A stretch of DNA of 64,000 bases, taken from contig OX457026.1 in the NCBI GenBank assembly GCA_949752745.1, positions 46,881,256-46,945,255 on the forward strand. Reading direction: 5' to 3'. The position numbers and the translations under genes were made by a program. The notes beneath the pieces are model-generated. The model made no database searches, was not told the origin of the DNA, and saw only the letters and a list, made by a program, of their open reading frames with translations. Below, piece after piece: positions 900 through 64,000 of this stretch (the first letter of the stretch is position 1; every line of letters starts with the position of its first letter). Origin of the DNA: Protula sp. h YS-2021 (Eukaryota; Annelida; Polychaeta; Sabellida; Serpulidae).

Positions 900-1313
900 A
901 CGTCGACATGCTCATTTTCCTTAACAAGAACATAGTTTAGAAAACTGACTAACATGAACTTCTGGACAGATTAATTTTATTCAAGTTCTGTTTTTTTCTA
1001 GAAATGTGATTATAGTGAAACAAGTTCCTTTGTAATTTTCATCGTGGTTTTGTTTGACCTAATTCAACTGATTTATGATTTAAATTTACTTTGATCTCTT
1101 TTTGTTATTAAACAATAAAAATAAATTCCGTATGGTTAATTAAGAATAGTCAACTTAAACAGGTCAACTTAGAGTTATTATTAATTGGCATTAATTAAAC
1201 AGTCAACTTAGAGTTATTATTAATTGGCATAAAACGGCGGTTCAAAACCGCGGTTTTTAAAAAAAAAACACGGTTCGAACCTGTTCAGAAATGCTCGCGG
1301 TTCCCATCCCTAG
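900..1313 (+). mobile_element. 3' part and terminus of hAT-like element (copy A)
   Basis: Non-coding. It contains a direct duplication of a motif ending aacttagagttattattaat at about 1,160-1,190 and 1,198-1,230. It ends in a palindrome-rich segment (gcggttcaaaaccgcgg, then ggttcgaacc) and a terminus reading, on the minus strand, ctagggatgggaaccgcg, a hAT-like end. It abuts SET exon sequence at about 1,314. The same junction occurs at 63,856. Confidence 0.55.
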
Positions 1314-1317
1314 TAAT

Positions 1318-1469
1318 AAATTCAAATTATAGAATCCAGACTTTCCGTCCATTGTGTATTGGCGTTCTCTGTCGCGATATTGGCGACTATTGAGGTATTC
1401 GCCACGGTATTGCAAAGGAAAATCCCCATTAAGGAATTTCTTCGTTGCAAAAACACCTTTTCCTGACAT
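1318..1469 (-). pseudogene. SET-domain N-terminal exon, copy A (interrupted)
   Basis: The minus strand encodes the start of a KMT5/SETD8-like SET domain: GKGVFATKKF, then GDF.LQYRGEYL, a typical SET N-terminal motif. It agrees almost base for base with 45,896-46,050 and with 63,860-64,000. The frame shifts by one base just after SG (F-Y-N instead of S-Y-I-F-E-F), and the exon is cut at its 3' side by the hAT-like element. A tttatgtcag splice acceptor precedes GKG, so the apparent ATG may be intronic. Confidence 0.7.
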
Positions 1470-1950
1470 AAATACATCGCAATTTATAATGTCTTACATT
1501 TTGTTAATGATGTAAGACTACTAATGGGCAAATCAATAGCTGTATTTATAATGTGTTTATAGGTTATCTGTCTGTCATACACTGTAAATGTACCAACAGT
1601 GCAATGACCACATAGGGTTAGGTTATGTATATTCTATAATATGTTGTGTAGTGTTAAAATGCCCAGTAGCAATTACATGTATGGTTTGTCTAATAATAAT
1701 GATTGGTTTAATACGTAGTATATTTGGACATTGTAAACTCTAGGCTAATGCATTATGTGAAGCGCTTTGGAATAAAGCGCTATATAAAAACCAGCTATTA
1801 TTATTATTATTATTATTATTATTTTGTTATCGTACAAAGCAACACGTTTACTGTAACTAGTTTCTCAATTTACTCTCATTGACAATTCCCATGCCCTTTA
1901 AAAACGTTTACTTTACTTAACAAAATCCAACTTTTCTTTCTATTTTCGGG
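1470..1950 (-). repeat. 5' flank of SET exon copy A, with a SINE-like insertion
   Basis: 1,822-1,947 and 1,470-1,496 match, inverted, the flank of the SET exon at 45,745-45,895 (shared gggaattgtcaatgagagta and acgtgttgctttgtacgata). Between them, 1,497-1,821, lies about 325 bases absent from the 45.8 kb copy. The insertion ends in gcgctttggaataaagcgct, tatataaaa and (ATT)n, a tail typical of CR1/L2-mobilised SINEs. Confidence 0.6.
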
Positions 1951-18756: not shown

Positions 18757-21700
18757 ACTATAGCTTACAGGTTTGTTTCTTGTTTCCTGCATTTCATCTC
18801 TCTTTGTCATCAGTGATGCACCGCCTTTTGTTGGTTGTTGGTTTCGCCCGTTTCATCATCAGACCATTTAGGCTGCCGGGCCACGGTAGTTGATCAATCC
18901 ACCGTCTTAGAGAGATGAGGCACAATCATGATGGTAACCATTGCTTGTCGTGTCGTTTCAGCCAGATCCAATTTGACGTCTTTTCTGCTGTGTTTTGACA
19001 TTCTTTTCTTATACGTTTCCTGATGTTGCCACCTATACCGAGTAATTTACACGTCGCCCATACTGATTTTTCCATGAATCCTCTACACCCTACTTCAATA
19101 GGCATACACCACACTTTCCAGCGGGCTTCTTCACACGCGGCTTTCAATTCATCGTACTTTGTTCTTTTCCTCTCGTTCGCAATGTCTATGTTTTCCTCCC
19201 ATGGCACTGTCAATTCTATCATAATCACTTGGCGTGTTTTTGTTGACCACAGCTATATCTGGTCTCAATGTTGTAGCTGTGATCTCTCCAGGGAACTGCA
19301 GTTTTCTACGCAAATCTACGCGTATTTGCCAGTCTGTTGCTGTTGCTAAGACAGCAACTGTGCTTCTACGTTGCTTCTATTCTTCTCCTGCTTTGACAAA
19401 TTTGATTAATGTTTGTGTTCTTTGTGGTTTTGTGTTGTTTTCTTTGTTAACGACCGGCACTAATATTGACGAGATAGCTTCTAATACTTTGTCATGTCTC
19501 CATCGGTACCTTCCTTGAGTAAGAGCTGTTCTGCACGATGACAGTACATGCTCCAGTGTCCCTCTCTTTCCACACAGTTTGCAACCGTCGTCTTCTGTCT
19601 TGTACCATAGTCTAAGGTTTGTGGGTGTTGGTAGTAGGTCGTATACACTACGTAGCAGGAATCCAAGCTGCATAGGTTGTTTTTGCAGTATTTCGTGCCA
19701 TGTCACTTTTCTTGGTGTTGCACTTTCCCATCTCGTCCAGGCTCCCTGGGCGCCCATACCCACTGCCTTTACTCTTCGTTGATCTTCTTCACTCTCTCGT
19801 ATCTCACGTTGTATTATGGACCTTCTCTCCTTGGTGTTTGCCTCGGTCCATTTCACTCGTGGTGTTACATCTAGGCCTCTTCTCCCTTGTCTCACAGTTC
19901 CGACTAATTCTTTGTGCTCTTCGCATCTTCAATGCTCTTCTGCACTGACCAGCGCCCACGTTGACTCAGTTGAACTTTTGCTCCTCGTATTGTATTGTCT
20001 TTTGATTCGTCGAGCATCACTTGTCCTCTTACGCGGCTAACTTGGTATTCTTCTTTCACTGATGACAGCGGCAGCTGAAGCTTGTTGGAGTCCCACCGCA
20101 GAAAAACTCTGGGGGACACCGAGCCACTTGCGCAATTGCTTGCTTGCCATCCTTTCCATTTCTTCCACACTGCTCATCGGGATGTCGTACATGAGCATGT
20201 TTCCACCGTGCTGGAAACACCATGCCTTGTATCTTCCAGGTAGCGGGGCCTTTTCTATTTTACACATATGTTCTTGTAGCTGCTGGATAGTTTGCCTGGA
20301 ATTTTCCGTGTCGCGTAAGCTTCCATCGTACCATTTTCCAAGGCACTTCACCGGTTCTTCACTCACTGTCGGGATGGTAACGTCTCCTATCTTAAATCTC
20401 ACGTTCTTTCCTATTTTCCCTTTGATGATGACTAAACTCCTACATTTTCGTGCCTTGAATGCCATTCTTGCCCATACTGTTAGCTCATAAAGTTTGTTTA
20501 AGATCCACCTCGCGCCTTGTGGTTGTGCTGTATTTATAGTTAGATCGTCCATAAATGCTTTGATCGGTTTTTGTTGAATTTCATTCACCTTTGGTCCCTT
20601 GCATTCTTTTTCTGCGGTTTTTATCATGATATTCATAGCAGCCAGGAATACTATAACCGATACCGTGCAGCCCGTGATTATACCCTTCTCTAGTCGCTGC
20701 CACTTTGTTGTAAAGTCGGTTGTGGTGAATCTGAATTTGAGCTTTTGGAAGTAGTTCTTGAAAATGTTGATTAGTTTCTCTGGTACGTGGTACTTCTCTA
20801 GTGCCAACATAACAAGCTCGTGTGGTACTGAGCCGTACGCGTTTGCTAGGTCCAACCATATTAACGTGATGTTTCCTCCTCTCGTTTTGGCATCTTGTAA
20901 CAGTTTTGTTATCATACTGTTATGCTCCCAACATCCGGAGAAACCTTCGACGCCTCCTTTCTGAGTTGATGTATCAATGTACCCGTTCTTGACCATGTAG
21001 TTTGTTAGTCATCGTGCTATTATTGAGAAGAAGATTTTCCCTTCAACATCAAGCAAAGATATCGTGCGGAACTGGTCTATGCTTGAGGAGTTTACTTCTT
21101 TTGGAACAAAGCAGCCTTCCGCTCTTGTCCATTCCTCTGGTATGTTTCCTTTCCTCCAAACTACCACGAGCTGGCGCCACAGCATGTGTAATAAACGCGG
21201 GCATTTCTTGTACACTAAGTATGGTATTCCGCTGGGGCCAGGTGCTGACTTTGCTCTTGCTTTCTTGACGACTTCTTTCACCTCCTTCCATGTGATATCT
21301 CCACTCTGAAACTCTGTCGTTGGTCTTTATGGTGTTTCTAAGTAGTCAAAAACTGGGAGTGGATCTTCTCTGTTCTTATCATTATGGACCGTTGCTAGAT
21401 GCTCTTCAACTTTCCTTTGACTACATGTGAGTTTCCCGCTTTTTTCCTTCCCAAGTAAATCTGATGTATACTTAAATGGATGTGAGATGAATTGCTCTTT
21501 TTCTTTACGGCGCCTTTTACATTTCCTACGTTGTTGTTCCGCTTGTCTCAGCTTTTTTAGTTTCTTTCTCAATTGTTGGCGTAGGTCATCCAATGCTCCT
21601 TTTTCCTCCGCTTTTGCTCCTTTCTATCTTTTTGAGAGCGCCTTCAGTTCTCTTCTCACCTCTTCTTTCCTCCTATCTCGTCGGTTCTCGTGTTTGTTAC

Positions 21701-26552: not shown

Positions 26553-27760
26553 ATATGTCTCCCCCTAAGGGAGACATATATAGCATTTGGTGTGTCCGTC
26601 CGTCCGTCCGTCTGTCCGCAGTGAGTTCTTATAAAATTAATGAGTCGATTTTTCTCAAAACATACATACATATTGGAGTACATGTCTAGATGATGCCCGT
26701 GGTATTTTTTTTTTGTTTCCTGAAAAATTCTATTTTTGGCAAATTTTTGAACATGGGGGGGGGGGGGGGGTTTGTGCATTTTTTCACTTTGGCAGGCTAT
26801 CTCTCCAAAACGGTTTGTTGGATTACGCTGAAACGTGGCAAGAACAATACACATATAGTGCAAATATTTATTGTGAAGTTTTACTTCATTTCCGCTGAAA
26901 ATGTATTTTTGGCGAATTTTTTAATTTTTGATTTTGAACTTTTTTGGCCATATTGTTGCGATATCTCTCAAACGGTTTGTTGGATTAAACTGAAACTTGA
27001 CAAGAAGAACTCACAAAACGTGTAAATGTTTACTGGAAGTTTTTCTTCATTTCCGTTGAAAATGTATTTTTGGCGAATTTTTAAATTTTTGATTTTGAAC
27101 TTTTTTTTGGCCATATTGTTGCGATATCTCTCAAACAGTTTGTTGGATTAAACTGAAACTTGACAAGAAGAACTCACAAAACGTGTAAATGTTTACTGGA
27201 AGTTTTTCTTCATTTCCGTTGAAAATGTATTTTTGGCGAATTTTTAAATTTTTGATTTTGAACTTTTTTTTGGCCATATTGTTGCGATATCTCCCAAACG
27301 GTTTGTTGGATTAGACTGAAACTTGGCAAGAAGAACTCACAAAACGTGTAAATGTTTACTGCGAAGTTTTTTTTCAGTTCCGTTGAAAATGTATTTTTTT
27401 GCGAATTTTTCAATTTTGGATTTTTAACTTTTTTGACCATATTGTTGCAATATCTCCGAAACAGTTTGTTGGATTAGGCTGAAACTTGGCAAGAAGAACT
27501 CACAAAACGTTTAAATGTTTACTGCGAAGTTTTTTTTATTTCCGTTGAAAATGTATTTTCAGCGAATTTTTCGATTTTTGATTTTAAAATTTTTTGGCCA
27601 TAATTGTTGCGATGTCTCCGAAACAGTTTGTTGGATTAGGCTGAAACATGGCAAGAAGAACCCATATGTAGTGGAAATGTTTACTGCGAAGTTTTTCCAC
27701 GTGACTGATTGGGGGCGGGGGAGACATATCCGTTTTTGTTTTAACAAAAACACTGGCCAA
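26553..27760 (+). repeat. Hairpin/GTCTGTCCGTCC-type repeat, copy 10, six units
   Basis: Cap gtctccccctaagggagaca, then gtgtccgtccgtccgtccgt. Six units of 161-167 bp follow, starting near 26,792, 26,954, 27,116, 27,277, 27,443 and 27,605 (core ctcaaacggtttgttggatt, then ctgaaacttg). It ends gggggcgggggagacatatc, echoing the cap. This is the best-preserved member. A G16 run lies at 26,755. Confidence 0.9.
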
Positions 27761-44832: not shown

Positions 44833-45744
44833 GATAGCAAGGCGTATGCCTGCCTGATCAGTCAATAAAACTTAAAGGGAAATGCGGGTATCTCTGCGCC
44901 ATCTAGCGACCGAAATGCGCATTACATTGAATATCGCTGAGTTTGGATCCATGTTTACGCAGTATAAATAACTACTAAATCCGTCTAGATAAAAAATTCT
45001 TTTCAAAGACAAATAGGGTCGTGTCCAGAAATGGTCTGTATTGATATTTTGTTCCTAGAAGGGCCTATGTTGATATATTGTCCATTAAAATCATATTACC
45101 CTGTTTTCACCATTTATCCATTGAGTCAATGGGATTTTGTCAAAAAGATTGTATAACTATCTTATTGATACGGTGACATATATTTTTTATTTGCTTTATT
45201 TATTATTATTTAAGAAGTACCTGTTTATCTTCACATAGACAAATTTATACTGGGTTTTGAGGCGTATAAATTAAGCTGGGTGTGAAAACTGCCAATCAGA
45301 GGTCTCCCTATAATGAACCAGTTTATTAATTTAACTGGTTCATTATAGGGATTAACAGTTAGACAAACATCTAGTTCAATATTTCATGAAAGAGGTTACT
45401 CTATAAATTTTGAACAGCTTTCAAGTTTTGAAAGGGCAATTTGCATCTTACTTTTATTGTACTCTACCTATTTCTACCCTTTCAAGAGAACTCCGATGGA
45501 AGAAGCACGATTCTAGTGCCAGCTCGGGATAGATAGAGACGGCTTTCAAATTAAATTCATAAACTCGAAAATAGGTAAGTCTGATACAATTTCAAAATTG
45601 GTAAATGCTAAAATTACCAACATGAAGGTTATGGTTCCACGGTTAGTCGAGCTGTCTTATTTGATTTTGACTTAAATGAAAAGCCCCTGCACATTATCAA
45701 GCGTCATTCAGTGGAATGATACTAAATTTTTAAAAAGGAAGGTA
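44833..45744. other. No gene recognised, one strong hairpin
   Basis: Nothing coding. See the hairpin at 45,306. Confidence 0.4.
45306..45350. repeat. Perfect 18-bp inverted repeat, 9-base loop
   Basis: CCCTATAATGAACCAGTT - tattaattt - AACTGGTTCATTATAGGG. Confidence 0.9.
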
Positions 45745-45895: not shown

Positions 45896-46072
45896 ATGTC
45901 AGGAAAAGGTGTTTTTGCAACGAAGAAATTCCTTAAGGGGGATTTTCTTTTGCAATACCGTGGCGAATACCTCAATAGTCGCCAATATCGCGACAGAGAA
46001 CGCCAATACACAATAGACGGACAGTCTGGGTCCTATATATTTGAATTTCATCATGGCGGAGAGAAACGATAG
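45896..46072 (+). CDS. SET domain N-terminal exon (copy B)
   Basis: MSGKGVFATKKFLKGDF, then LLQYRGEYLNSRQYRDRERQ, then SGSYIFEFHHGGEKR, stop. This is the KMT5-like opening of a SET domain (G-x-G-V-F-A-T…Y-x-G-E). A tttatgtcag acceptor just before GKG makes an upstream exon likely, with the true exon starting at 45,903. The next exon needs two bases carried over. The sequence here ends in TAG, with no in-phase GT that keeps the SYIFEF segment. Copies A and C diverge right after GSYIFEF, where the hAT-like element sits. Confidence 0.7.
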   Translation: MSGKGVFATKKFLKGDFLLQYRGEYLNSRQYRDRERQYTIDGQSGSYIFEFHHGGEKR

Positions 46073-46243
46073 TTCGTATTCATATGCCTCTAATTAAGTT
46101 GTTTAGTTAGGTTAGCTCTGACGACGACCAGTACCAATGTCGTTTTTTGTCCACTACCGACATATATTAGCATAAGTAGCATAATTGCAATGATATGCTT
46201 TGAACCAAAGACGCTTTTCATCTAGCAAGTAAGCAGAATTCTC

Positions 46244-46318
<75 letters not shown>

Positions 46319-47182
46319 GCATCATCACATGTGAAATGCCAATGATTACGTGCCTTTAATTGAAGTTTTATGCAGTGTGTGCGCGAGAGGGACTGTTGAA
46401 ATAAACTTGAAATAAATCAGTTATATGATTTGCACGAAATACTGCAATGTTAGATGAAAAACAAAAACAGGTGCGGGGGGGGGGGGGTCAGAATTTCACA
46501 GGGGGTCCAAATTTCATAATGCAATTCGCACCGGGATGTCCGCGGGATGGGTATGCCTCGGAAGCCATGACAGCTCTAGTAAATAGAATGGATTACTAAG
46601 ATGTACTCACCCGACAGAGTAACAAAACGTCCTGACGGAGTACACAATGTGACTGACTGATGCGTGTATGTGTTGCTTTTATGTACTGTTGCTTCAAGTT
46701 GCAACCTTGAATGGTTTTATGTCCCTCAATTTTGTCCATTTTCTTGTTTGCTAACTAAGAAGTACTTGTTGAGTTTTACTGACATGTTTGTGTTCTTTTT
46801 GTATGGATCTTATTGGACAAATTTGACGCCTACTTTGAAAAAAATTGTTACTTCGGCGAGCTATTTATGAGTAGAAAAAACCTAGCTTCGTCGTCATCCT
46901 CGCCGTGGATGCTGAAAGCTTCATATTCTCGCTGTTAAGTTTTAATGAATGCACCAACCGCTTATGTAGCTTGTTATTTATTTTAAGATTATTTTAAAAT
47001 TTATACCGAAAGTTATACGATTGCATGCAAAAATCCTTGCTGTAATGAAACTGGAGAAGACACACTTTTTTCAAGTAATAAGGTCAAATATTAAAGATAT
47101 GGCCGATACAATTCGGCAACTTTTTCAGCACCACAATATGTGCAAACGTGTTTTTAAACGATGACTTTTGCTTTTATTTCAG
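46073..47182. other. Intron between SET halves, with (ATC)n
   Basis: Contains the (ATC)n run at 46,236-46,319 and a G-run at 46,478-46,489. No exon recognised. It ends in a good acceptor, tgcttttatttcag. Confidence 0.55.
46236..46319. repeat. (ATC)n microsatellite
   Basis: About 28 near-perfect trinucleotide units. Confidence 0.95.
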
Positions 47183-48958
47183 CATTGATGGGACGTACAA
47201 CCAGTGTCCAGCACAATACTTGAATGATAGATGCGCCTCTAAGGCAAATGCAGCGGTCAAAAAGGTAGTCGTAAGAGACAAGCCCTATGTAGCGTTTTTT
47301 GCGTCGAAAGACATAAATGTGGGAGATGAAATTCGGTATGACTATGGCGTCCAAGGTCTTGAATGGCGCAAAAAGGCCAAGGCTCCCGGTGTTGAGGAAA
47401 CGAATAATGACGAGGACTGGCACTCTGACAATAACACGAGCAGTGGCGATGACTGGCACTCTGACAATGACGCGAGCAGTGGCGATGACTGGCACTCTGA
47501 CAATGACGCGAGCAGTGGCGATGACTGGCACTCTGACAATAACGCGAGCAGTGACGAAAAATCGGGCTTTGACACTGCCACGACTAACAACGAGGAGGCG
47601 CACGTGGACACATCCATGTCTACTATGGAGGGGGCGCACGTTCAAACGGCCACATCTCCTGCCGACGACATTCACCTTGACCCGGCTCCATCTCCAGTCG
47701 AGGACGTGCACAGTGACACGGCCACGCCCAATGTAGGGGTCAATGAGGTCAATCACGTCCACACGGCCATACGTCCTGCCAAGGAGGCGCACGTCGACAT
47801 GGCCTCACCCTCTGTCGAGGACGCGCACGTGGACATGACCTCACCCCCTGTAGAGAACATGCAGGTTCACACAGCCACACCCTCGGTCGAGGAGTCGATC
47901 GCCGACAAGGCCGCACCATCTGTCGAGGACGTGCACGTGGACTTGACCTCACCCCCTGTAGAGAACATGCAGGTTCACACAGCCACACCCACTGTCGAGG
48001 AGTCGATCGCCGACATGGCCGTAGCATCTGTCGAGGACGCGCACGTGGACATGACCTCACCTCCTGTAGAGAACATGCAGGTTCACACAGCCACACCCCC
48101 TGTCGAGGAGTCGATCACCGACATGGCCGTACCATCTGTCGAGGACGCGCACGTGGACATGACCTCACCTCCTGTAGAGAACATGCAGGTTCACACAGCC
48201 ACACCCCCTGTCGAGGAGTCGATGGCCGACATGGCTGTAGCATCTGTCGAGGACGCGCACGTGGACATGTCTTCACCCCCTGTAGAGAACATGCAGGTTC
48301 ACACAGCCACACCCCCTGTCGAGGAGTCGATGGCCGACATGGCTGTAGCATCTGTCGAGGACGCGCACGTGGACATGTCTTCACCCCCTGTAGAGAACAT
48401 GCAGGTTCACACAGCCACACCCCCTGTCGAGGAGTCGATGGCCGACATGGCTGTAGCATCTGTCGAGGACGTGCACGTGGGCATGTCTTCACCCCCTGTA
48501 GAGAACATGCAGGTTCACACAGCCACACCCCCTGTCGAGGAGGCGCACGTGGACACGGCCACACCCTTTGTCGAGGAGTCGATCGTCGACATGGCTTCAC
48601 CCTCTGTCGAGGACGCGCACGTGGACATGACCTCACCCCCTGTAGAGGACATGCAGGTTCACACGGCCACACCCCCTATCGAGGAGGCGCACGTGGACAC
48701 GGCCACACCCTTTGTCGAGGACGCGCACGTTGACATGACCTCACTCCTTGTAGAGGACATGCAGGCTCACACGGCCACACCCCCTATCGAGGAGGCGCAC
48801 GTGGACAAGGGTACTTCAACTGTCCGGAAGGCGTACTTTGATAATATCGTGCTCAAGACCTTTCACGGACTCAGTTCAATCACTCGTATTGGCACTGATG
48901 ATAGATTTGTCACTAGGGTTCCATCAAAGTTGATTCCAAAGCAGAGGACGCTGAAACT
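47183..48958 (+). CDS. SET domain C-terminal half plus acidic repeat region
   Basis: Starts after gcttttatttcag and ends at a consensus donor, gtgagt. Residues 1-75 complete the SET domain: IDGTYNQCPAQYLNDRC (the N-H-S motif position reads N-D-R-C), YVAFFASKDINVGDEIRYDYG with the Tyr of Y-D-Y-G. Then come four copies of a 12-residue unit (GDDWHSDNDASS), then about nine copies of a 36-residue unit (VEDAHVDMTSPP, VENMQVHTATPP, VEESMADMAVAS). Each 36-residue unit is three 12-residue variants. Strongly acidic and free of stops over 592 codons. The last 40 residues are non-repetitive and basic. Confidence 0.85.
47398..47560 (+). repeat. 36-bp coding minisatellite, four units
   Basis: Units of ggcgatgactggcactctga followed by caatgacgcgagcagt, nearly identical. 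Confidence 0.9.
47805..48815 (+). repeat. 108-bp coding minisatellite, about nine units
   Basis: Higher-order repeat built from 36-bp subunits (gtcgaggacgcgcacgtgga; gtagagaacatgcaggttca; gtcgaggagtcgatggccga). The middle units at 48,130-48,470 are almost identical, which suggests recent unequal exchange. Confidence 0.9.
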
Positions 48959-49256
48959 GTGAGTCTCCTTAAGTTGTAAAAAATTTTATGTATACAGTCC
49001 ACGTAATCTTTTCAAAGGTGCAACAAAAGGGAGCGCACATTCGGATAATGCTTTGATTGAATTTATTACTGTCTGTAGTCGTTTAGCGCTAAGGTATTAC
49101 TATAGACTCCCTGATATTTGAACTGGTATCCTTTAAGTTAGTTAACAAGGTTAAGTAACACTTGGTTAACAATTCTTACTTTACAGGAGTTTTTCAGGCT
49201 CATGAAAATCCTTTTGGAATCTTAATTAACTAGACATTCTTTTTAATTTGCTTCAG
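48959..49256. other. Intron of SET/recombinase gene
   Basis: Donor gtgagt, acceptor ttgcttcag. No repeat recognised. Confidence 0.55.
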
Positions 49257-49361
49257 GAGAGCAATGCAACAGACCATGAACGACTTATGCGGTGGAGCAC
49301 ACCTGAGCGCGACAACACATTACCGCCACCATTAAATGTTATTCCATTGCAGCCAATGAGT
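49257..49361 (+). CDS. Linker exon 3
   Basis: Acceptor aatttgcttcag, donor gtaagt. One frame reads RLMRWSTPERDNTLPPPLNV and ends in phase 1, joining exon 4 cleanly. This frame is one base off the end of the previous exon, so a small indel probably separates them. Confidence 0.55.
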
Positions 49362-49623
49362 AAGTTATGATATCAATAAACAATAAAACTTTATGCAATG
49401 GACACCTCTGGTACCTGGTAAATCTGTTTATTACATAAAGGTGTTCATAATGAGAAGTGAATTTCATCATAACAGTTAAAAATTCCGAGGAAATAGTGTT
49501 GCCTAAGTGCAGTTGTTTGCTAACGGAGATTTTACTGTAATGTAATTTATTTTTATTGTTCGTTTCTTTCATTATTTTTGTTGAAATGCTGAAACAAAGA
49601 GATTTCCCGAATGTATTTTTCAG

Positions 49624-49738
49624 GTCCAGTACTCCCTGAAGAGCCTGAAGAAAATTTGTTTATATCTGATCTGAACGCTGGGATTAAACAGCTAGGGGCC
49701 AGCTCGCATACGTTGATTGACGAGAATGACGTTCAGTG
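49624..49738 (+). CDS. Linker exon 4
   Basis: Acceptor gtatttttcag. Reads SPVLPEEPEENLFISDLNAG, then HTLIDENDVQ. A one-base excess just before the donor (cagtg|gtatct) breaks phase with exon 5. A GTCCGTCC-type repeat starts within 15 bases of the donor. Confidence 0.55.
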
Positions 49739-49750
49739 GTATCTCCCCGT

Positions 49751-50130
49751 GGCTTTTTATCCCCAGTAGAACGGAGGGATATAGTTTTGAACTTTTCGGT
49801 CTGTCCGTCCATCCGTCCGTCTTTCACGCTTCAGTCTCACGCGCCTACAGGCCACATTAATAGATGGATTCCTTTCAAATTTTGTACACGGCTTCTCTGC
49901 ACCCTTCCGCAGTGCACTAACCAAGAATTTTGGGACTTAAATTGACAAATTGGCTAATGTTTCAAAATCGGCGCTGTACTTAGAGTACTTATGGCAGTCT
50001 CAGGTCCCTACTGGTTATTGGATTGACTCATTTAAATGTTAGACACTATGTCTACCCTTCCCCCACTTTTAAATTTTGTGTAGTCAACATACAACAGCCT
50101 TACACATACCACGGGGCATACTCCTCGAGA
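49751..50130 (+). repeat. Hairpin/GTCTGTCCGTCC-type repeat, copy 12
   Basis: Sister of copy 9: agaacggagggatatagttt, ggtctgtccgtccatccgtc, tctcacgcgcctacaggcca, ending ctcctcgagacgtagtcagg. Inserted in an intron. Confidence 0.85.
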
Positions 50131-50526
50131 CGTAGTCAGGTTAATATAAATTTTAAAAATGTATGACTAAATAGTTGGACGTTTTTCAAGGCTCAGTGTA
50201 ATGTTGTCACCCATTGAGGTAAAAAGAAAAGAGGATTTTTAATTCATTTACATCTTTACAGGTAATGGTTGTATAATTTTTGTATAGATTGAATTTCCAA
50301 TTAGATAGACAAAATCTCTAGCTCATGCATATTTACACTGGTGTCATCATATACACTTTTCAGGCTTATTGACGACGCTTTTATTGTATGCAGTAATAAA
50401 GCATTTTTTATCTGCTTATAATTTTATCTGTAATTACAGCATCAATTGAAATGTGAAATATTTAAATTTACCATAGATATACTAAGCTCAATGTGTTAAA
50501 AATATGATTCGATTCTTGTGTTACAG
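50131..50526. other. Intron, nothing recognised
   Basis: AT-rich, ends in acceptor ttcttgtgttacag. Confidence 0.5.
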
Positions 50527-50610
50527 ATTCCTCACTGCAAATTGCAGTGGTAGCGGCTGATCTTCGGAGCTTGGTTAGGGGCGACACACAAGCAGAACCA
50601 CAACGTGAAG
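50527..50610 (+). CDS. Linker exon 5
   Basis: Acceptor cttgtgttacag, donor gtaagtc. Phase 1 in and out. Reads SSLQIAVVAADLRSLVRG, then DTQAEPQRE. No domain. Confidence 0.6.
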
Positions 50611-50814
50611 GTAAGTCTACTTGCATGATCTTGTACTACATTCACATACTCCGTATGGTGTTTGCATCAATGCGAGAAAAACTTAAACTATATATACACC
50701 AAATTGACGACTTTGAGAGACCAAACATGGAGATAGGGAAATAGGTGGACCAAATACGCATCCATTGTTTTTTCTTAATTTCAAAACTCAAATGTCACTT
50801 GTCAAAACTCAAAT

Positions 50815-51521
50815 GTCAAATGATACAGGCGGTGACAGGTGAACGCCCCCTCTCTTTCTGTATCTTGAAAACATTGTCTCCTTAAGGGAGCTGTCTGCCC
50901 GTTTTTCCACGTCTCCCGCGTCTTCCCGCGTCTGCTGTGGTGTTATGTGTATGTGTAAAGAGACAGAGCAAACGTGAAAGTGAGGGGAAAAAAGACAACC
51001 CGTTTGAAAGAGAGAGAGAAAGAGAAACTGGGCGAAAAAAATAGTGGCTCCTTGGTTGCGTTTGCCGTCGTGTGTTTCGATAGAGAGTAAAATTGAAAGC
51101 AAAAAAAAAAGACTGCTCGTTTGGTCATTTAGTTTGTTGCGTGTGAAGAGAGAGCTCTCAGTCAGTATGTATGACGTCATTGCTGGGTCAAAATACCTAA
51201 TAGGCGAGCTCTAACCATGTCTCTATGAGTCCTCTGCTTAAAAAACAGTTGGAGAGCTTACAGGGAGCTGTCTGCCCGTTTTTTCCACGTCTCCCGTGTC
51301 TCTCCGCGTCTGCTATGGTGTTATGTGTGTGTGTAAAGAGACAGAGCAAAAGAGAAAGTGAGGGAAAAAAAGACGACCCATTTGAAAGAGAGAGAAAGAG
51401 AAACTGGGCGAAAAAAGAGTGGCTCCTTGGTTGCGTTTGCCGTTGTGTTATGTGTAGAGAGCGAAAGAGAAAGCAAAAAAAAAAAGACTGCCCGTTCGGT
51501 CAATTAGTTAGTTGCTTGCGT

Positions 51522-51599
<78 letters not shown>

Positions 51600-51600
51600 C
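50815..51600. repeat. GA-rich composite repeat
   Basis: The segment gggagctgtctgcccgtttt, agagacagagcaaa, agtggctccttggttgcgtt is present twice (50,885-51,160 and 51,259-51,530). It ends in a (GA)n run at 51,527-51,594. Arg/Glu-rich frames through it are not genes. Confidence 0.75.
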
Positions 51601-51635
51601 TCCCTGGGGTTAAAAATAGCTTGGCTTAAGGAAAC

Positions 51636-51954
51636 ATAAGCCAATTCGCACTTTTGGCTTGTGCCGAAAAGTTTTTGCGTTTCGGCTGAATTCAGATGGG
51701 ATAAGGATATAAAGAAATGATAGGAAAAAACGGCAGAAATCAACAAAATTCCATTTTGTCAGAAATATAGTCACATGTTGGTTATTAAAAGGACTGAATA
51801 ATATGTAAAATAGTTTTTGAAAGATCATATGATGGCTTTATAAATTCAAAAGTGTGCATGTTGAAAGAAAATTAGAATTTGGATGTTATCCCCCAACATT
51901 TTCAGTCGAAACAACATCTCCACTGGAAAAATCTGAAAGTGCGAATTGGCTCAT
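51636..51954. mobile_element. MITE-M copy
   Basis: ataagccaattcgcactttt to gtgcgaattggctcat, with a short internal deletion near the right end. Confidence 0.9.
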
Positions 51955-53834
51955 TGGTTGCTCATTTTAATTGCTTTTACGGAGACCCATTAGTGATGGT
52001 GTGTGTGAAGAGAGAGAAAGCAAAACGGGATTACCCGTTTCTCCGGCTGTCCATTTGTCCGGCTGTCCATTTGCCCGGCTGCTCGTTTGTCCGGCTGTCC
52101 GTTTGTTCGGTTGCCGTAGGTGTTATGTGTGTTTGGAGAGCGAGAAACCCAAAAATTACATTGTTGTCTGCCGTAATGCATGGAGAGAGCTCTCTGTGGT
52201 TAAAATAGCCATTTTTAATTGCTTTTACTGAGATCCATTAGTGATGGCATATGCGTGTGGAGAAAGAGAGAGTTAAAAAAAATGATTGCCCGTTTGCCCC
52301 GTCTACCGTAGGTGTTATATGTACATAGAGAGAGAGTGATAGAGCAAACGTGAAAGTGAGGAAAAAAAGACAACCCGTTTGCTCGTTTGAAAGAGTGAAA
52401 GAGAAACTGGGCGAAAAAAAGAGTGGCTGCTTGCTTGGTTTACCGTTATGTGTGTTTGGAGAGCGAGAAAGCTGGCTTGAGAAAGGAAACGCTAAATGAG
52501 CCGTACGTGGTTGGTATATGTAGGTAGAGAGAGCGAAAAAATCGAACGAAAAAAGACTGCCCGTTCGGTCATTTAGGTGTGTGTGTGCCGTGGTGTGATG
52601 TGTGTGGAGAGAGAGTAACAGAGAGTGAATTCAGGTGGGATAAGGATATAAAGAAATGATAGGAAAAAAACGGCAAAAATCAACAAAATTCCATTTTGTC
52701 AGAAATATAGTCACGTGTTGGTTATTAAATCGACTGAATAATATGTAAAATAGTTTTTGAAAGATCATATGATGGCTTTATAAATTCAAAAGTGTGCATG
52801 TTGAAAGAAAATTGGAATTTTGATGTTTTCCCCTTATCATTTCTTTATAATTTATCCCCCAACATTTTCAGTCGAAACAACATCTCCACCGGAATAAGCC
52901 GAAAGTGCGAATTTGCTTATTGGTTGCTCATTTTAATTGCTTTTACGGAGACCCATTAATGATGGTGTGTGTGAAGAGAGAGAAAGCAAAAAAAGATTGC
53001 CCGTTTCTCCGGCTGTCCATTTGTCCGGCTGACCATTTGCTCGGCTGCTCGTTTGTCCGGTTGCCGTAGGTGTTATGTGTGTTTGGAGAGCGAGAAAGCA
53101 AAAAATTAGATTTGTTGTCTGCCGTAATGCATGGAGAGAGCTCTCTGTGGTTTAAAAATGGCCATTTTTAATTGCTTTTACTGAGATCCATTAGTGATGG
53201 CATATGCGTGTGGAGAAAGAGAGAGTTAAAAAAATGATTGCCCGTTTGCCCCGTCTGCCGTACGTGTTATATGTACATAGAGAGAGTGATAGAGCAAACG
53301 TGAAAGTGAGGAAAAAAAGACAACCCGTTTGCTCGTTTGAAAGAGTGAAAGAGAGACTGGGCGAAAAAAGAGTGGCTGCTTGCTTGGTTTACCGTTATGT
53401 GTGTTTGGAGAGCGAGAAAGCTGGCTTGAGAAAGGAAACGCTAAATGAGCCGTACGTGGTTGGTATATGTAGGTAGAGAGAGCGAAAAAATCGAACGAAA
53501 AAAGACTGCCCGTTCGGTCATTTAGGTGTGTGTGTGCCGTGGTGTGATGTGTGTGGAGAGAGAGAGTGACAGAGAGTGAATTCAGGTGGGATAAGGATAT
53601 AAAGAAATGATAGGAAAAAAACGGCAAAAATCAACAAAATTCCATTTTGTCAGAAATATAGTCACGTGTTGGTTATTAAATCGACTGAATAATATGTAAA
53701 ATAGTTTTTGAAAGATCATATGATGGCTTTATAAATTAAAAAGTGTGCATGTTGAAAGAAAATTAGAATTTTGATGTTTTCCCCTTATCATTTCTTTATA
53801 ATTTATCCCCCAACATTTTCAGTCGAAACAACAT
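51955..53834. repeat. Tandem duplication of about 960 bp
   Basis: 51,955-52,920 and 52,921-53,834 are near-identical. Each holds ttggttgctcattttaattg, the (c/g)ccgtttgtccggctg series, GA-rich blocks and a left-truncated MITE-M (52,627-52,920 and 53,577-53,834). The second ends abruptly at gtcgaaacaacat. Confidence 0.85.
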
Positions 53835-54920
53835 GTGTGTGTGTGCCGTGGTGTGATGTGTGTGGAGAGAGAGTGACAGAGCAAACGAGAAAGTGAGGGA
53901 AAAAAAGAGTGGCTGCTTGGTTCGCCGTGGTGTTTGTGTGTGTGTGTGTGTGTGTGTGAAGAGAGAGAAATAGTTGTTGCTTCCTCGCCTGCTTCTCAAT
54001 GTGTGCAGTGATGCGTGAAGAGAGAGCTGTCTGGGCTAAAAATAGCTTGGCTTAAGGAAACTCTGTCATTGGTTGCTTAGTTCTAATTGATTTTCCGATG
54101 GCCCAGTTGTCCGTGTTACGGTGGCATATATAGTCCGGCTGGCCATTTGTCCCGCTGCTCGTTTGAATAGCTGCCCACTATCCCTATCACGTCATTATGA
54201 CGTTCATATGACGTCCATATCACATCCATGTGACGTCACTGTTTTACTAGCCCCATGGGGCTTCTAAAACAATGACGTCACTGTTTTAGAAACCCCAATA
54301 TATATGTTTTAGAAACCCCACTTTTATCCTACTTTGCATACTGTGTATATTTTCTGCGTACTGTGTGTAACTAGGGGATTGGTGCCAGGAACTCTGGCAA
54401 CCTTTCACAAACAGAACCTCAGTGAGACGCTCTCACAACAAAGACTGATTTGTGTCAGCTGCGCAAACAGACAGGCTTAGCTCCTCCTACTCAGGATGCA
54501 TCTCTAACGTCACAGCGACTGCGCTTACTGACTGGAAGTATCACTCGCATTTTAGCCAGCAGCGAGCGCACATCGAAACAAAATAGCAGTATTCCCTTTT
54601 TAATACCGACCACCCCTCCCCCTTTTTCCACCCCTCCTTATTTGGTTAACATTACTAATAAATGTTTCACTATCATGCTAAATGTTTTATGCTAGTTGTG
54701 TGTAGACAAAAAATTATTGCTGTGTATTGTTATTCATTGATAGTGTACTGTCACTTCAGCAGCAATTATGTTTTTTACAATATATAAGAATATTACTCCC
54801 AACCGAGTTGTTTTATTCTTACTGTCTTGTCAGAGAGCTAGATGTCAATACAGTCAATTGTATCGTATGGAACTTAATATCAAATCGACGGCTTAAATAT
54901 ATATATATATACCAAACTTA
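53835..54920. other. GA/GT-rich then unassigned sequence
   Basis: 53,835-54,060 continues the GA-rich pattern. 54,187-54,290 has repeated TGACGTCA-like motifs. 54,640-54,920 is AT-rich. No exon recognised. Confidence 0.45.
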
Positions 54921-54924
54921 CTAC

Positions 54925-55435
54925 TTAGAGAGATCATAGTTTTCGGTATGGCGTTTGTGAGGTACAGGCGGTGACAGGTGGACAGTCTCTTTCTTTCTAT
55001 ATCTTGGAAACATGGTCTCCTTAAGTGTTTCTATGTAGATATATATCAAACTGACTACTTCGAAAGACCATAAATAAATAGGGGACAAAATGTGCATTGA
55101 TTATATTTACTCGTATATAACATTGAAATACGACTTTGGGAGACCATGCTCGGGATACTTTTTGGTATGGCGTTTGTGAGGTTTGTGACAGGTGGACAGT
55201 CTCCTTTTTTCTATGTCTTGGAAACATGGTCTCCTTAAGTGTTTCTATGTAGATATATATCAAAGTTACTACTTAGAAAGACATACATGAAAATTGGTAA
55301 ATAGGGAACAAAATGTGCATTGCTTATATTTACTCGTATATAACCTTGACCATACTCGGGATACTTTTCGGTATGGCGTTTGTGGGGTACAGGCGGTGGC
55401 AGGTTAACAGTCTCCCTATTTTTAGACCATACTCA
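54925..55435. repeat. Tandem repeat, about 210-218 bp, 2.4 units
   Basis: Units share tcggtatggcgtttgtgagg, tcttggaaacatggtctcct, taagtgtttctatgtagata and tttactcgtatataac. Related to the GGGAGACC family. It fills the intron before exon 6. Confidence 0.8.
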
Positions 55436-55456
55436 AAATATCCTATTCTTTTTCAG

Positions 55457-55500
55457 GAGCAAAAACGGCCAACAGTGCCAACCAAAGTGGTTCAACCACA
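55457..55500 (+). CDS. Linker exon 6
   Basis: Acceptor tattctttttcag. Joined in phase 1 it reads GAKTANSANQSG. Several phase-1 GT donors are possible, so the end is approximate. Confidence 0.45.
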
Positions 55501-55774
55501 AGAAAAGACAAAAAGAACGACTAGATTGGTTGCTATTGTACATATGCTTAATGTAGATCAGTCCAAAACTTTCCATTTCACACGAAAAGTTTTCTAGTTA
55601 TTCAACAATAATTGTGGAATATTGTAGGCATTATTAATTTTCGGAAAAAATCATACCTTGTTCATACTGAGTAAAACTTAATTGTGCAAAACTGCTTTTG
55701 ATTAGTACACACTCATGCGGAGATTCCTGCATCGTTAATCAACAACTTGTATTACGCTTTTTTACTTGCCTTAG

Positions 55775-57263
55775 AAGATTTGTTATTAATGTTTCAGAAG
55801 CCCCCAAGAGAATGCCGTTTTTGTAGCAAAGTCATAACGGGTGGTAAATTGAAACGCCACATCACGAATTTGCACAAGCGTTTGCAAGAAGTGAAATCCA
55901 ACATGCATGAGAATAAACTTGATAGCCAATTCGCAAACGAAAAGCGAATAGAAGGCATCAAGAAGAACACAATCTAAGAGTACTCAGTGAATTGTCTTTT
56001 GATCAAGCTGACCTGATGCGCGAGCGAAGAACAAATGCGATAAGACCATCCGCGCTTGTGACTAATTTACATCACGACCAGGAGTTCAAGGAAAGAATCC
56101 TCGACAAATTTCAAGAGGATGAAACGGGAATGTTGTGCAGAAGTAATAGCTTTCTGAAGGAAATGGGTTATCGCATTTTCAACAAAAAGCGCTATTCAAA
56201 ATCCAAAGCAGCCGAATGCAGGAAAAATTCGATGACCGAAATGCGGAAGCTTGCGAATCTCTTCCTGGAATACAAGAAAGTACCTGGAGCTCCTCAAAAT
56301 GCTTCCATTGAAGACATGTTCCACAAAGGTAGAGAAAACATGAACATTCTGTATGAAGCCATAAAAAGAAGGGGACAAAGTTCTTCCTCAGCTAAAACGA
56401 AGCAAGGGCTTTTGAAGAACATTAAGGCAGTGCTCAGGAGATCGGCGAAACATCTCGAAGCCATTTATGACGAAAGATCCGAAAATGACAAAGTATTAGA
56501 TGTGCAAGGGTTCAGAAGGCAATTCCATTTTCGAGATCCCGAAGTATTCGCTGAAGCGGAATACCTCGCAACCGAGCGCACTTTTGAAAGGCGAAGGTCT
56601 TATGAGCTACCATGTGACAAAATGGTCCAGCGCTTGCATACGTTTGTGAATGATCGAGTGAGTGCCATTGTGAACGACTTTGTTGTCGAAAAATATGCCT
56701 TGCTCAGGAATCTCGTCGTTTGTCGACTCACTCTGTACAACGCGCGTCGCGGTGAGGAAGGTGCGAGGATGCTGATTACGGAATAGGAGGATGCCAAAAA
56801 TAAAGTCTGGGTTAGTGATGAGGCCATAGATTCGGTTGTAGACCCAGCAGAAAAAGTCCTGGCAAATCAGTATCTATTGGCCTACTTGCATGGTAAAGGA
56901 AAAAAATTCGTTCCTATACTGATACCCAAAAATGTCGTTGGCGCATTGGACATCTTGGTCAAGTATCGCAAAGCGTACGGAATCAAAGAAAATAACAATT
57001 CCGTGTTCGCTTCAAGAGGCTCATACAATCACTGTTCTGGGTGGCATGCAATGAATCAAGTTACAAAGATGATTCCAATCACGCTAAGCGCGACTATGAA
57101 TCGTCATAGGATTTCGACGATTTATTCATCTTTGGATATGTCTCCCGCTGATGCCAAAATATACTTTAATCACTTGAGCCACTCCGATATGAGAAATACA
57201 GATGTCCGCCAGGTTTAAAAGAGACATTGGTGATGGGCCGATTTTTGCAGAGTGTTGACGAAG
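55775..57263 (+). CDS. C2H2 finger plus tyrosine-recombinase core exon, broken
   Basis: Acceptor tttttacttgccttag, donor gtaaac, phase 1 both sides. First a C2H2 finger, CRFCSKVITGGKLKRHITNLH. Then, after a one-base shift near 55,965, an N-terminal helical region (LRVLSELSFDQADLMRERR, FLKEMGYRIFN). Then the recombinase core: LYNARRGEE with the catalytic Arg codons at about 56,745-56,750, KFVPILIP, GWHAM, MNRHRISTIYSSLD with Arg-His at 57,102-57,107, and YFNHLSHS. The expected Tyr is at 57,197-57,199 but in a different frame, after an apparent small deletion (YRCPPGLKE). An in-frame TAG lies at 56,784. Arg and Tyr positions fit eukaryotic Crypton/DIRS-type enzymes. Confidence 0.75.
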
Positions 57264-57329
57264 GTAAACACTTTCGTTTTATCTTTATTGTCAAAATTTA
57301 TTTTCAAAATAGTAATGTTGTTAAAAGGT

Positions 57330-57435
57330 AAAAGTAGGCCCGGTATGGACGGCAGCGTTGCCACTTGTAGCGCGTCAGCTGCTGCTACTGCTTCAACCGG
57401 TGCTAAACCAAAGAAACCTAGGTGCAGTCTCTTAG
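57330..57435 (+). CDS. Ala/Thr linker exon
   Basis: Phase 1 in, phase 1 out (donor gtgtgt). Reads GKSRPGMDGSVATCSASAAA, then KPKKPRCSLL. Preceded by a short 66-base intron. Confidence 0.6.
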
Positions 57436-57726
57436 GTGTGTGTTTTTCCACTTATTGTATTGATTTTTTAAATTGCCTCTCAATATGCTTTACCTATTGA
57501 TTTCATAAATTAATTTATGTTTTCTTATAAGTTAAAGTGTGAATGTTGTCACTGGCATATTTGCGCAGTGATGAAACCTAACTATTCACCGGTGCTATAG
57601 GGGCACTAGGCAGTAAACACCTTGGTACTTGAGCAAATTGAAAAGCTTATTGCACAAACTAAATTACAATTAGGCTTAAATAATTCCCATGAACAGATGC
57701 AAGAACCCTGGAAAAGCCGTGTGCAG

Positions 57727-57960
57727 CAACAGCCCGAAAACACTCTCGGAGCACTTGTGAGGTGTTAAGAACCAGGAATTCATCTGATAGTGATGATGAT
57801 CAGGCTCCTTTAATTAGATATGTGAAAGGGTGTGAGAGAGCCCATAGCGACTCCGATTCAGACTCAGATTGGAGTGAATCGCGAGTTTCAGACGCGCCTA
57901 AGGAAGATTTCTCAGGAAAGTCACACCGAAAACGGACACGAGGCTGCCTGGATACTGACA
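57727..57960 (+). CDS. Acidic Ser/Asp-rich exon
   Basis: Read after gccgtgtgcag in phase 1 to donor gtatga. Reads STCEVLRTRNSSDSDDDQAP, then SDSDSDSDWSESRVSDAPKE. A likely disordered segment. The acceptor is weak, so the start could be later. Confidence 0.55.
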
Positions 57961-58569
57961 GTATGAAAAATCGGCAATATCCTGGAATGCTCCCGTTTTT
58001 CTCTTTAAACGCATTAAAACGTCGTATTACCCTTTATTTTGTAGATTGTATTTCACAAAAATAGGAGGAACGTTCCAGGACATATCCGTTTAAGCTTATA
58101 GACTTTTGATTTACATAAGCAATAAAGCTTGCAGTTTTATCAAATGACAACTATGCATATGTTCACCATACAGCCGAGCAGCTGTAAAAACCATGTGCTC
58201 TTGGGTAAAATCAAATAAAAGCATATAATTCTGCAAAAATAATAGCAAATGCACCTCTTCTCGTAAGCAGTCCTTCTGCTTGATGATCATGAAATTGGGA
58301 TAGGGGCCATTCATGTAGTGCGTACGCAGGGAGGGGGTCGCAGCCAAAACATACGCACTGCGCACAGGTGGGAAGGGGGTTCAAGCCACCAGCATGCCTA
58401 CACAATTTTTAATATACATATGAATATTGCATTTTACTAAGCGTATGTGGGTACAGGGGAAGGGGGTATGGTCCAAAGTGTACGCACTGCGTACAAGGGG
58501 TATGATTGGCTAGATTGGCTAAAAAATGACATTGTCACTATGATATATCATAAATCTGAATTAATTTAG
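57961..58569. other. Intron with a degenerate repeat
   Basis: 58,300-58,500 contains two related blocks (gtacgcagggagggggt and gtacaggggaagggggta; acatacgcactgcg and gtgtacgcactgcg), a common invertebrate MITE pattern. Confidence 0.5.
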
Positions 58570-58641
58570 GCGAATATGAGCCAATGCTTGAAGAGGAAGA
58601 AGAGAGTTCTATCGCTAGAAAGCGTGTTGAGAAAGCAAAAG
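58570..58641 (+). CDS. Glu-rich linker exon
   Basis: Acceptor aattaatttag, donor gtatcg, phase 1 in and out. Reads EYEPMLEEEEESSIARKRVE. Confidence 0.65.
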
Positions 58642-59058
58642 GTATCGAAACATTGATTTATTCATTTGAAGCTCCAGTTGCAAAGCATTTGTAAGGATTT
58701 TCGCCAGCTAAAAGAGAAATTGGTGCCACAATATGATCCCCAGTGTCTGGGCAAACCTTACAATAAACAACCCCGACATGTTAGATAAGCAGTTTCTTCA
58801 TTTGTTTATGTCTTTTAACATACAGAAAACTGTTAGAATATCTTCTTGAAGCAGTAAATTGTGCAAATATTTTCAGATGTCGAGTTTTGGTGGGCCAATT
58901 GGTACAATTTTGGCTTCGACGTTATAATTAAGTCACTGTTTGAAGTCGTTCAAGAATACTTTTACAGCAGTTTAGGGTTTTGAAAATCAACAACTTTTTC
59001 TGGTATGTTTTTTTTATTTTTATGCAGTGAGGCATTTTGTTTGATGTTTCCCTTTTAG
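58642..59058. other. Intron, nothing recognised
   Basis: AT-rich, ends in acceptor tttcccttttag. Confidence 0.5.
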
Positions 59059-59154
59059 GTACTGGATGTGCTGTCAAGTGGTCTGCAGAAGATACTCTTG
59101 CAGTGAAAACACACTTTTCTGCATTTTTGCAGAAACCAAAAGGGCCTTATCCTA
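59059..59154 (+). CDS. C-terminal W-box domain, exon 1
   Basis: Phase 1 in and out. Reads GCAVKWSAEDTLAVKTHFSA, then FLQKPKGPYP. The pattern K-W-[ST]-x-E-[DE]…V…H-F is a helical domain that follows the recombinase core in related eukaryotic proteins. Confidence 0.7.
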
Positions 59155-59387
59155 GTATGTATCTCACTCCTGTCATTGAACCAAATACAATTATAGATAT
59201 TAAAAATTTTAAATAGTTTCAATGAGTTTTCAGGACGATCTGTTCTTAGGAATCATTATAGCTTGTAATTTATGAGGTAAAGGAAAGTTGACCTGGGCGG
59301 TTTAGTTATTCTAAAACATTGAGATATACATCTCTCCATTACGGTGTCAATTCGTTGAATTTTAAGTGTCTATTTCTTTCCTTTAAG

Positions 59388-59587
59388 GCAAGGCAGAGAT
59401 TCTACAATTCCTCGGCATGAAATCCATAAAGAGTATCGAACACTTACCCCGAGAAGAACAGTACAAAAAGATACGAGCGAAAGTGATCAACGAAAGAAAG
59501 ACGGTGCACATCAACATAAATAAAAATCTTAAGGTACTGTTACCAAAGAAACAGCAGGTTAACAAAGCTGATAAAGTTGAAGGATGA
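59388..59587 (+). CDS. C-terminal W-box domain, last exon
   Basis: Acceptor cctttaag. Reads SKAEILQFLGMKSIKSIEHL, then YKKIRAKVINERK, and ends with a Lys-rich tail (LPKKQQVNKADK) at TGA. It completes the helical domain begun in the previous exon. No lesion. Confidence 0.7.
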
Positions 59588-62826: not shown

Positions 62827-62884
62827 CCCAAACACAGGCATCGGAGATGCAGAGCTATCAGCCAATAGCCTTTACATCACTGTG

Positions 62885-63135
62885 ACTGGGGCGCTGATCG
62901 GGATACAAAACTTATGCTTTACCGAGCCTTGATACGGTCTAGATTAGACTATGGCAGCATTGTCTATGGATCAGCAAGACCTTCATACCTAAAAATGCTA
63001 GACCCGATACAAAATCAAGGTTTACGACTGTGTCTAAACGCTTTTAGAACATCACCAGCAGAAAGCCTCCATGTGGAGGCAAATGAGCAGCCGCTTAACA
63101 TTCGTCGAGTTAAACTCGCTATGCAGCACACAACA
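62885..63135 (+). pseudogene. LINE reverse-transcriptase C-terminal fragment (Jockey/I-like)
   Basis: Reads DWGADRDTKLMLYRALIRSR, LDYGSIVYGSARPSYLKMLD, then NQGLRLCLNAFRTSP. This is the conserved segment after the RT palm in Jockey/I-group LINEs. 5'-truncated and joined directly to hAT sequence at 63,136. Confidence 0.8.
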
Positions 63136-63450
63136 AAGCGTCTAGCAGAAATAAAGATCGGTGGTGACACAAGTAATTTACTTATTCACCTAAACGACAC
63201 CACGCCCATGTTACATTCAGAATGTTCGAGCGCGACCAGAGAGAAACTGAAAGAAACAAAAGGCAAAGCCGAAAAGAAAAAGGTACAGCAAACGTTAGAA
63301 AACATGCTACAGAGCAAGCTTCCGCCACTCAAATTGCAGAGAAAAGTGCAACATTCATGTGCTGTATTCGGCGTATTGTTTCATTTTTCCATCGTAGTGC
63401 CATTGCCTCCCAGTGTTTAGAAGAAAAAGCTGTCACGACTATCCGCAGAT
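63136..63450 (+). pseudogene. hAT BED-finger fragment (copy C)
   Basis: From aaagcgtctagcagaaataa onward it matches 616-899, with 17 extra bases that keep TSNLLIHLNDTTP, closer to a real BED finger. The upstream half of the finger is replaced by LINE sequence. Confidence 0.65.
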
Positions 63451-63858
63451 AACGTCGACATGCTCATTTTCCTTAACAAAAACATAGTTTAGAAAACTGA
63501 CTAACTGGACAGATTAATTTTATTCAAGTTCTGTTTTTTTCTAGAAATGTGATTATAGTGAAACAAGTTCCTTTGTAATTTTCATCGTGGTTTTGTTTGA
63601 CCTAATTCAACTGATTTATGATTTAAATTTACTTTGATCTCTTTTTGTTATTAAACAATAAAAATAAATTCCGTATGGTTAATTAAGAATAGTCAACTTA
63701 AACAGGTCAACTTAGAGTTATTATTAATTGGCATTAATTAAACAGTCAACTTAGAGTTATTATTAATTGGCAAAAAACCGCGGTTCAAAACCGCGGTTTT
63801 TAAAAAAAACCGCGGTTCGAACCAGTTCCGAAATGCTCGCGGTTCCCATCCCTAGTAA
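63451..63858 (+). mobile_element. 3' part and terminus of hAT-like element (copy C)
   Basis: Near-identical to 900-1,313, including the duplicated taattggca motif and the CCGCGGTT palindromes, ending at ttcccatccctag. Confidence 0.7.
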
Positions 63859-63859
63859 T

Positions 63860-64000
63860 AAATTCAAATATATAGGATCCAGACTTTCCGTCCATTGTGT
63901 ATTGGCGTTCTCTGTCGCGATATTGGCGACTATTGAGGTATTCGCCACGGTATTGCAAAGGAAAATCCCCATTAAGGAATTTCTTCGTTGCAAAAACACC
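63860..64000 (-). pseudogene. SET-domain N-terminal exon, copy C (interrupted, runs off the window)
   Basis: The minus strand reads GVFATKKFLNGDFPLQYRGE, then SGSYIFEF, cut by the hAT-like element at the same base as copy A. Unlike copy A it keeps the SYIFEF frame. It continues beyond the right edge. Confidence 0.75.

Follow-up and report, generated by a model that had tools for sequence, protein, structure and literature searches.

The window, a stretch of 64,000 nucleotides from the annelid Protula sp., carries a broken copy of a fusion gene at ~45.4-59.6 kb. In order, the locus contains a pre-SET exon, SET exon 1, SET exon 2 with repeats, a zinc finger/recombinase block and a C-terminal domain, all on the + strand:

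~45442..45574 (5′ end uncertain), +, pre-SET exon encoding the lead peptide that precedes SET (tblastn with relative P0006, E 3e-4)
45903..46071, +, N-terminal half of the SET domain (Pfam SET and KMT5A 5teg matches of the spliced pair)
47183..~47370, +, C-terminal half of the SET domain, with the Asn of the Asn-His/Asp motif and DYG (same spliced-pair matches)
47411..48807, exon to ~48958, +, acidic tandem repeats between SET and zinc finger (TRF; ORF 47082-48962; donor ACT/GTGAGT)
49262..49359, +, candidate linker exon (open phase chain only, no homologue support)
49624..49738, +, candidate linker exon (open phase chain only, no homologue support)
55798..55965, +, C2H2-type finger (~55801-55880) and following stretch (tblastn with P0002, E 2.8e-13)
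55965..56783, +, tyrosine recombinase, core-binding part and start of the catalytic part, R of NARRGEE at 56748-56750 (tblastn with P0001; conserved residues)
56787..57188, +, tyrosine recombinase, catalytic part with the lysine region, R-H at 57102-57107 and H at 57180-57182 (tblastn; conserved residues)
57176..57274, +, end of the catalytic domain in another frame, Tyr codon at 57197-57199 (tblastn with P0002, E 8.4e-7)
59061..59154, +, C-terminal helical (W-containing) domain, exon 1 (tblastn with P0014, E 0.02, weak; acceptor TTTTAG)
59390..59587, +, C-terminal helical domain, exon 2, to the stop codon (tblastn with P0016, E 3.7e-6)

Domains encoded at the locus

The original prediction had described two halves of a KMT5-like SET domain in successive exons, an acidic repeat region downstream, a C2H2 finger and a C-terminal W-box-like domain, all on one strand, and each of these was recovered. 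The spliced SET halves match Pfam SET at E 2.9e-16, and their best solved relative in the PDB is KMT5A (5teg, E 2.8e-14). The halves join in phase at TA/C with a weak donor. Alignment of the window and eight relatives to 5teg shows that GxG and the Asn are kept in 9/9 sequences and the Tyr of DYG in 8/9, P0058 being the one that differs. The His of the 5teg Asn-His motif is replaced by Asp in 8/9, and S. purpuratus retains His. The pre-SET exon had been overlooked; it ends in a consensus donor (ATAG/GTAAGT) and joins in phase to 45903.

Tandem repeat detection (TRF) resolved the acidic region into a 36-nt array at 47411-47557 followed by 108-nt (36-residue) units at 47760-48807. The repeat exon lies ~6.8 kb from the finger exon across sequence that is largely repeats, and a large share of the stretch between linker and finger (49.75-55.4 kb) recurs elsewhere in the window. 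The splice sites tried yield 100 chains that keep an open frame between the repeat and finger exons, so phase compatibility is little proof of a join and the case for the fusion rests on homologues. The splice phases had been described as compatible throughout; this holds for the SET join and open chains do exist, but the frame is not intact.

The zinc finger is aligned by homologue P0002, with a weak Pfam match (zf-C2H2_4, E 0.094). A recombinase core with the signature N-A-R-R-G, R-H, H, Y had also been predicted, and all of these residues are present; the core is interrupted, however, and its Tyr is out of frame. The window recombinase is 61% identical to P0001 (tblastn, E 7.5e-165) and 52% identical to P0002 (E 1.2e-134). 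By itself it gave no Pfam match passing the cut-off, and the fold of the core-binding and catalytic domains of tyrosine recombinases is present in P0002. Of six proteins compared with NCBIfam and PHROGs, two gave matches to XerD or integrase, all of them weak, and a PDB profile search with A1 gave 0 matches at E 0.1. Across the family, the residues to which we assign catalytic roles by motif are kept almost without exception: R in 166/167, K in 163/166, R in 163/164, H in 163/164 and Y in 161/164. At the first His of the published R-H-R-Y tetrad, which we put three positions ahead of the second R, 147/164 sequences have Thr. The C-terminal helical domain is found in the P0006 model and in P0010, P0014, P0016 and the window; Pfam gave it no name.

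The window copy is decayed. An in-frame TAG at 45514-45516 lies inside the pre-SET exon and another, at 56784-56786, inside the recombinase; the frame also breaks near 55965, where the finger gives way to the recombinase. A short out-of-frame deletion near 57185-57196, within the recombinase as well, puts the catalytic Tyr codon in a different frame. The second zinc finger of the relatives is absent from the window copy. Any single one of these breaks may be a sequencing error.

The fusion in other animals

A search with the recombinase retrieved 48 proteins, 4 with a precomputed SET domain. The SET region of Mercenaria retrieved 9 proteins, Haliotis P0049 among them, and a query of rearranged segments from four relatives found 413 matches, of which the best 120 were taken. 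The gene models of the relatives are computational. Profiles for both SET and the tyrosine recombinase (YR) matched 16 of the 169 retrieved proteins (third search: best 120 of 413). Seven of the 16 are Magallana models among the matches listed, P0053 with a cut SET; Diadema P0077 and the unnamed P0140 are partial. The matches listed represent at least nine distinct named fusion genes in at least eight species of three phyla: Magallana, Mercenaria, Haliotis, Sinanodonta, Strongylocentrotus (P0055 is an S. purpuratus protein with SET and YR), Apostichopus (twice), Diadema (partial) and Styela. In 9/9 of the named genes SET is N-terminal, and the proteins are 772-1188 residues long. A conserved N-terminal peptide is found in the Magallana, Mercenaria, Haliotis, Ruditapes and Sinanodonta models.

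The original prediction had proposed a protein search with its exons as a check, and named relatives with only one of the two parts as evidence against the fusion. The search returned single annotated proteins with both domains, which support the fused architecture at the level of gene models. One-part relatives also exist: in 153/169 retrieved proteins (third search: best 120 of 413) the profile detects no SET. Of these, 103 have fewer than 700 residues, and their models may lack a distant exon; the other 50 have at least 700. Pfam SET is absent in the long models P0014, P0016, P0124 (Hydractinia) and P0163 (Hydra). Among the matches listed, the recombinase occurs in molluscs, echinoderms, chordates and cnidarians, and SET with YR in the first three phyla only; no cnidarian protein with both was present. 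No relatives were confirmed in viral contigs or prokaryote genomes.

History of the SET part

The YR tree has 33 rows, the window and 32 relatives; P0048, P0140, P0005 and P0012, present in an earlier tree, were left out. It splits into two clades, each with 100/100 support. One is a bivalve clade in which the window and three unnamed relatives also fall, and the other holds molluscs, echinoderms, tunicates and cnidarians. The window's nearest named relatives are bivalves. Several species carry two or three YR paralogues per genome.

The 10 rows with SET, including the window and the partial Diadema, are spread over both clades, and grouping them as one clade is rejected (p-AU 2e-52). On 30 YR rows, with the three unnamed ones left out, 10 changes are required to explain the 10 rows with SET, the maximum; 38/200 label shuffles also reach 10 changes (mean 8.5). 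In the models, then, SET tracks no lineage, a pattern that repeated gain, exons missed by the models or frequent loss could each produce. None of the branches of the 10-row SET tree is starred; there the window groups with Styela, not bivalves (86/84), in conflict with the YR tree.

Discussion

The locus belongs to a little-studied animal family of SET-recombinase genes whose protein is one long chain of a KMT5A-type SET domain, a repeat linker, zinc fingers, a tyrosine recombinase and a C-terminal helical domain. We read it as a decayed gene copy and the family as, most likely, a lineage of Crypton-like DNA transposons with a captured chromatin writer, and give this reading a probability of about 0.64. 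The original prediction had offered this, with a writer that might steer insertion or silence hosts, or a host gene that domesticated the recombinase. The almost invariant active site favors the mobile element, and the domesticated gene fits less well. The paralogues per genome and the large KMT5A-like gene sets of Hydractinia and S. purpuratus are also suggestive of mobility.

If the family is mobile, the fingers and C-terminal domain would hold the ends of the element and the recombinase would cut through its tyrosine, with the element moving through an excised circle. The known target of KMT5A is H4K20. The SET domain of the element might methylate a lysine either in the protein of the element itself or in the chromatin of the donor or target site, a modification that could tune expression or insertion.

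The family may work like a Crypton. As in the CryptonA elements of animals, to go by the available text of PMC3212892, a tyrosine recombinase is the only mobility enzyme recognized in the proteins, and the recombinase of the family shares hosts with Cryptons among molluscs, echinoderms, chordates and cnidarians. Animal Cryptons are described there as having no C-terminal domain after the recombinase, whereas this family has a helical domain behind it, and SET, repeats and fingers in front. Domesticated DUF3504 genes have, according to the same text, lost most of the R-H-R-Y tetrad; the present family differs in keeping both R and the Y, although not the first H position. DUF3504 does not appear among the 25 of 52 families listed from a 45-member Pfam scan, which also gave one member a weak match to DDE_Tnp_4 (E 0.005). 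In 20 relatives, Pfam detected no transposase or reverse transcriptase, and no RNase H of the DIRS/Ngaro kind, in the protein itself; separate ORFs are possible, and in DIRS these enzymes may occupy another ORF. The reverse transcriptase found in the window is 24 kb from the locus.

HarbingerS and MuDR are DDE-type transposon superfamilies. In Phytophthora, families of both are DNA transposons with a SET histone methyltransferase, as the available text of PMC12730594 describes, so SET capture by DNA transposons is already known. Those cases involve other superfamilies and an oomycete host; here a tyrosine recombinase shares one protein with SET, in animals. SETMAR/Metnase likewise fuses SET to a transposon-derived enzyme, but in the accounts available its mariner transposase is inactive and confined to anthropoid primates, whereas the YR active site is conserved here across phyla. 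The nearest YR precedent found is the capture of DNA methyltransferases, also epigenetic enzymes, by DIRS elements. These are retrotransposons, however, and in the available text of PMC5890265 one ORF holds the methyltransferase together with the reverse transcriptase, and a separate one holds the recombinase. Among the titles and abstract openings listed from the open-licence literature, none describes a SET-tyrosine recombinase fusion; a Repbase Reports record is possible.

KMT5A/SETD8 is a short protein with a C-terminal SET, according to the available text of PMC10368294, unlike the long proteins with an N-terminal SET and Asn-Asp described above. The same text reports sets of genes that resemble KMT5A, 65 of them from Hydractinia and 61 from S. 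purpuratus, described as predicted H4K20 methyltransferases, and the longer members have an N-terminal SET and C-terminal ends common to both animals. Its available main text mentions neither recombinase nor integrase nor Crypton. An N-terminal KMT5A-type SET, a common C-terminal part and many copies liken these genes to the present family, and we infer that the C-terminal part is its recombinase. A broader proposal, for which we would give slightly less than even odds, is that an animal class of YR transposons with its own KMT5A-type methyltransferase predates the split of molluscs, echinoderms and tunicates, perhaps also cnidarians, and that the Hydractinia and sea urchin families are largely its genes. 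If so, much of the supposed expansion of H4K20 methyltransferases at genome activation would be transposon expression, which would alter the annotation of invertebrate KMT5A-like gene families and the reading of their embryonic expression. A histone-mark writer and a recombinase in the same chain would also make the handling of host chromatin by mobile DNA directly testable.

The family could instead be an old host gene, a KMT5A paralogue fused to a recombinase, retained as a chromatin regulator and expanded by duplication, with the recombinase acting as a sequence-specific DNA-binding or remodeling enzyme. The N-terminal peptide shared by the molluscan models, the multi-exon structure of the window locus and the embryonic expression of the KMT5A-like families reported in the available text of PMC10368294 are what such a gene would lead one to expect. 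A mere DNA-binding role would not need an active site kept almost without exception, and with the patchy presence of SET and the broken window copy we regard a host gene as unlikely. That the SET and recombinase exons are two unrelated neighbor genes read as one by chance is compatible with the repeat-rich ~6.8 kb between repeat exon and finger exon; single annotated proteins from at least eight other species have the parts in this order, which rejects it for the family and leaves it extremely improbable.

A YR transposon family might also have gained SET exons several times independently from host KMT5A genes. The scatter of SET rows on the YR tree and the lack of starred branches in the SET tree, with the window's SET joining Styela, accord with this, and SET presence as scattered as the labels allow slightly lowers our confidence in the captured-writer transposon, the host gene and the broader proposal above, in favor of repeated gain. 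Exons missed in gene models could give the same scatter, however, and Asn-Asp in 8/9 SETs suggests one source. The fixed place and order of SET in the protein and the similar pre-SET lead peptide incline us to one old capture followed by losses or missed exons, and we hold repeated gain to be unlikely. The captured-writer transposon stays our preferred reading.

Other features of the window

No tRNA was found in the window, and Rfam gave no match at the gathering score. An inverted repeat at 45305-45351 was considered as an element end and rejected; the window has no second occurrence of it when up to 3 mismatches are allowed. Self-BLAST located two fragment copies, 94-96% identical to the main copy:

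1318..1944, -, copy A, SET exon 1 and its 5′ intron, without recombinase
63860..64000, -, copy C, SET exon 1, truncated at the edge of the window

The idea that these SET-exon fragments show recent movement was dropped; they say little about the element because they lack the recombinase and have other sequence in common. Copy A is 94-95% identical to the main copy and interrupted by ~315 bp. The two copies have 866 bp in common at 93%, made up of the SET piece and ~0.7 kb of other sequence (63135-63860 beside copy C).

Linker repeats and possible loss of the catalytic half

Six of the retrieved relatives (P0009, P0013, P0014, P0016, P0054 and P0055) each carry their own distinct tandem repeat as the linker that precedes the recombinase, as judged by eye. 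The window copy likewise has a tandem-repeat linker before its recombinase. Inspection by eye of the six protein sequences indicates that the linker repeat turns over rapidly while its position in the protein is fixed. The profile of the recombinase catalytic part was unmatched in only 2 of the 169 relatives, a set that includes the best 120 of 413 from one search. These two Saccostrea proteins, P0045 and P0047, are built of repeated units of a finger plus the recombinase core-binding part, and they are possibly a domesticated offshoot that has lost the catalytic half.

Other features of the window

SET exon 1 sequence also occurs in two fragments.

618-1944, minus strand: SET exon 1 fragment and adjoining other sequence
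63135-64000, minus strand: SET exon 1 fragment and adjoining other sequence

The same non-SET sequence adjoins both fragments, which have 866 bp in common overall (93%). This attached sequence overlaps an ORF at 62869-63420 that looked retroelement-like, without a Pfam match.

The remaining features are as follows.

45305-45351: perfect inverted repeat (19 nt, loop 9 nt), ~90 bp 5' of the pre-SET exon
26802-27697: tandem array (163-bp unit, 5.5 copies, 91% matches)
19377-21008, minus strand: non-LTR-like retroelement
15859-16410, plus strand: 183-residue ORF encoding a C2H2 finger

The inverted repeat has no other occurrence in the 64-kb window. In the retroelement, a reverse transcriptase matches PF00078 with E = 4e-15. 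An RT-type zinc-binding segment comes after it, with a score below its cut-off (E = 2e-4). The C2H2-finger ORF lies in a tandem duplication (15661-15997 versus 16035-16372, 89% identity).
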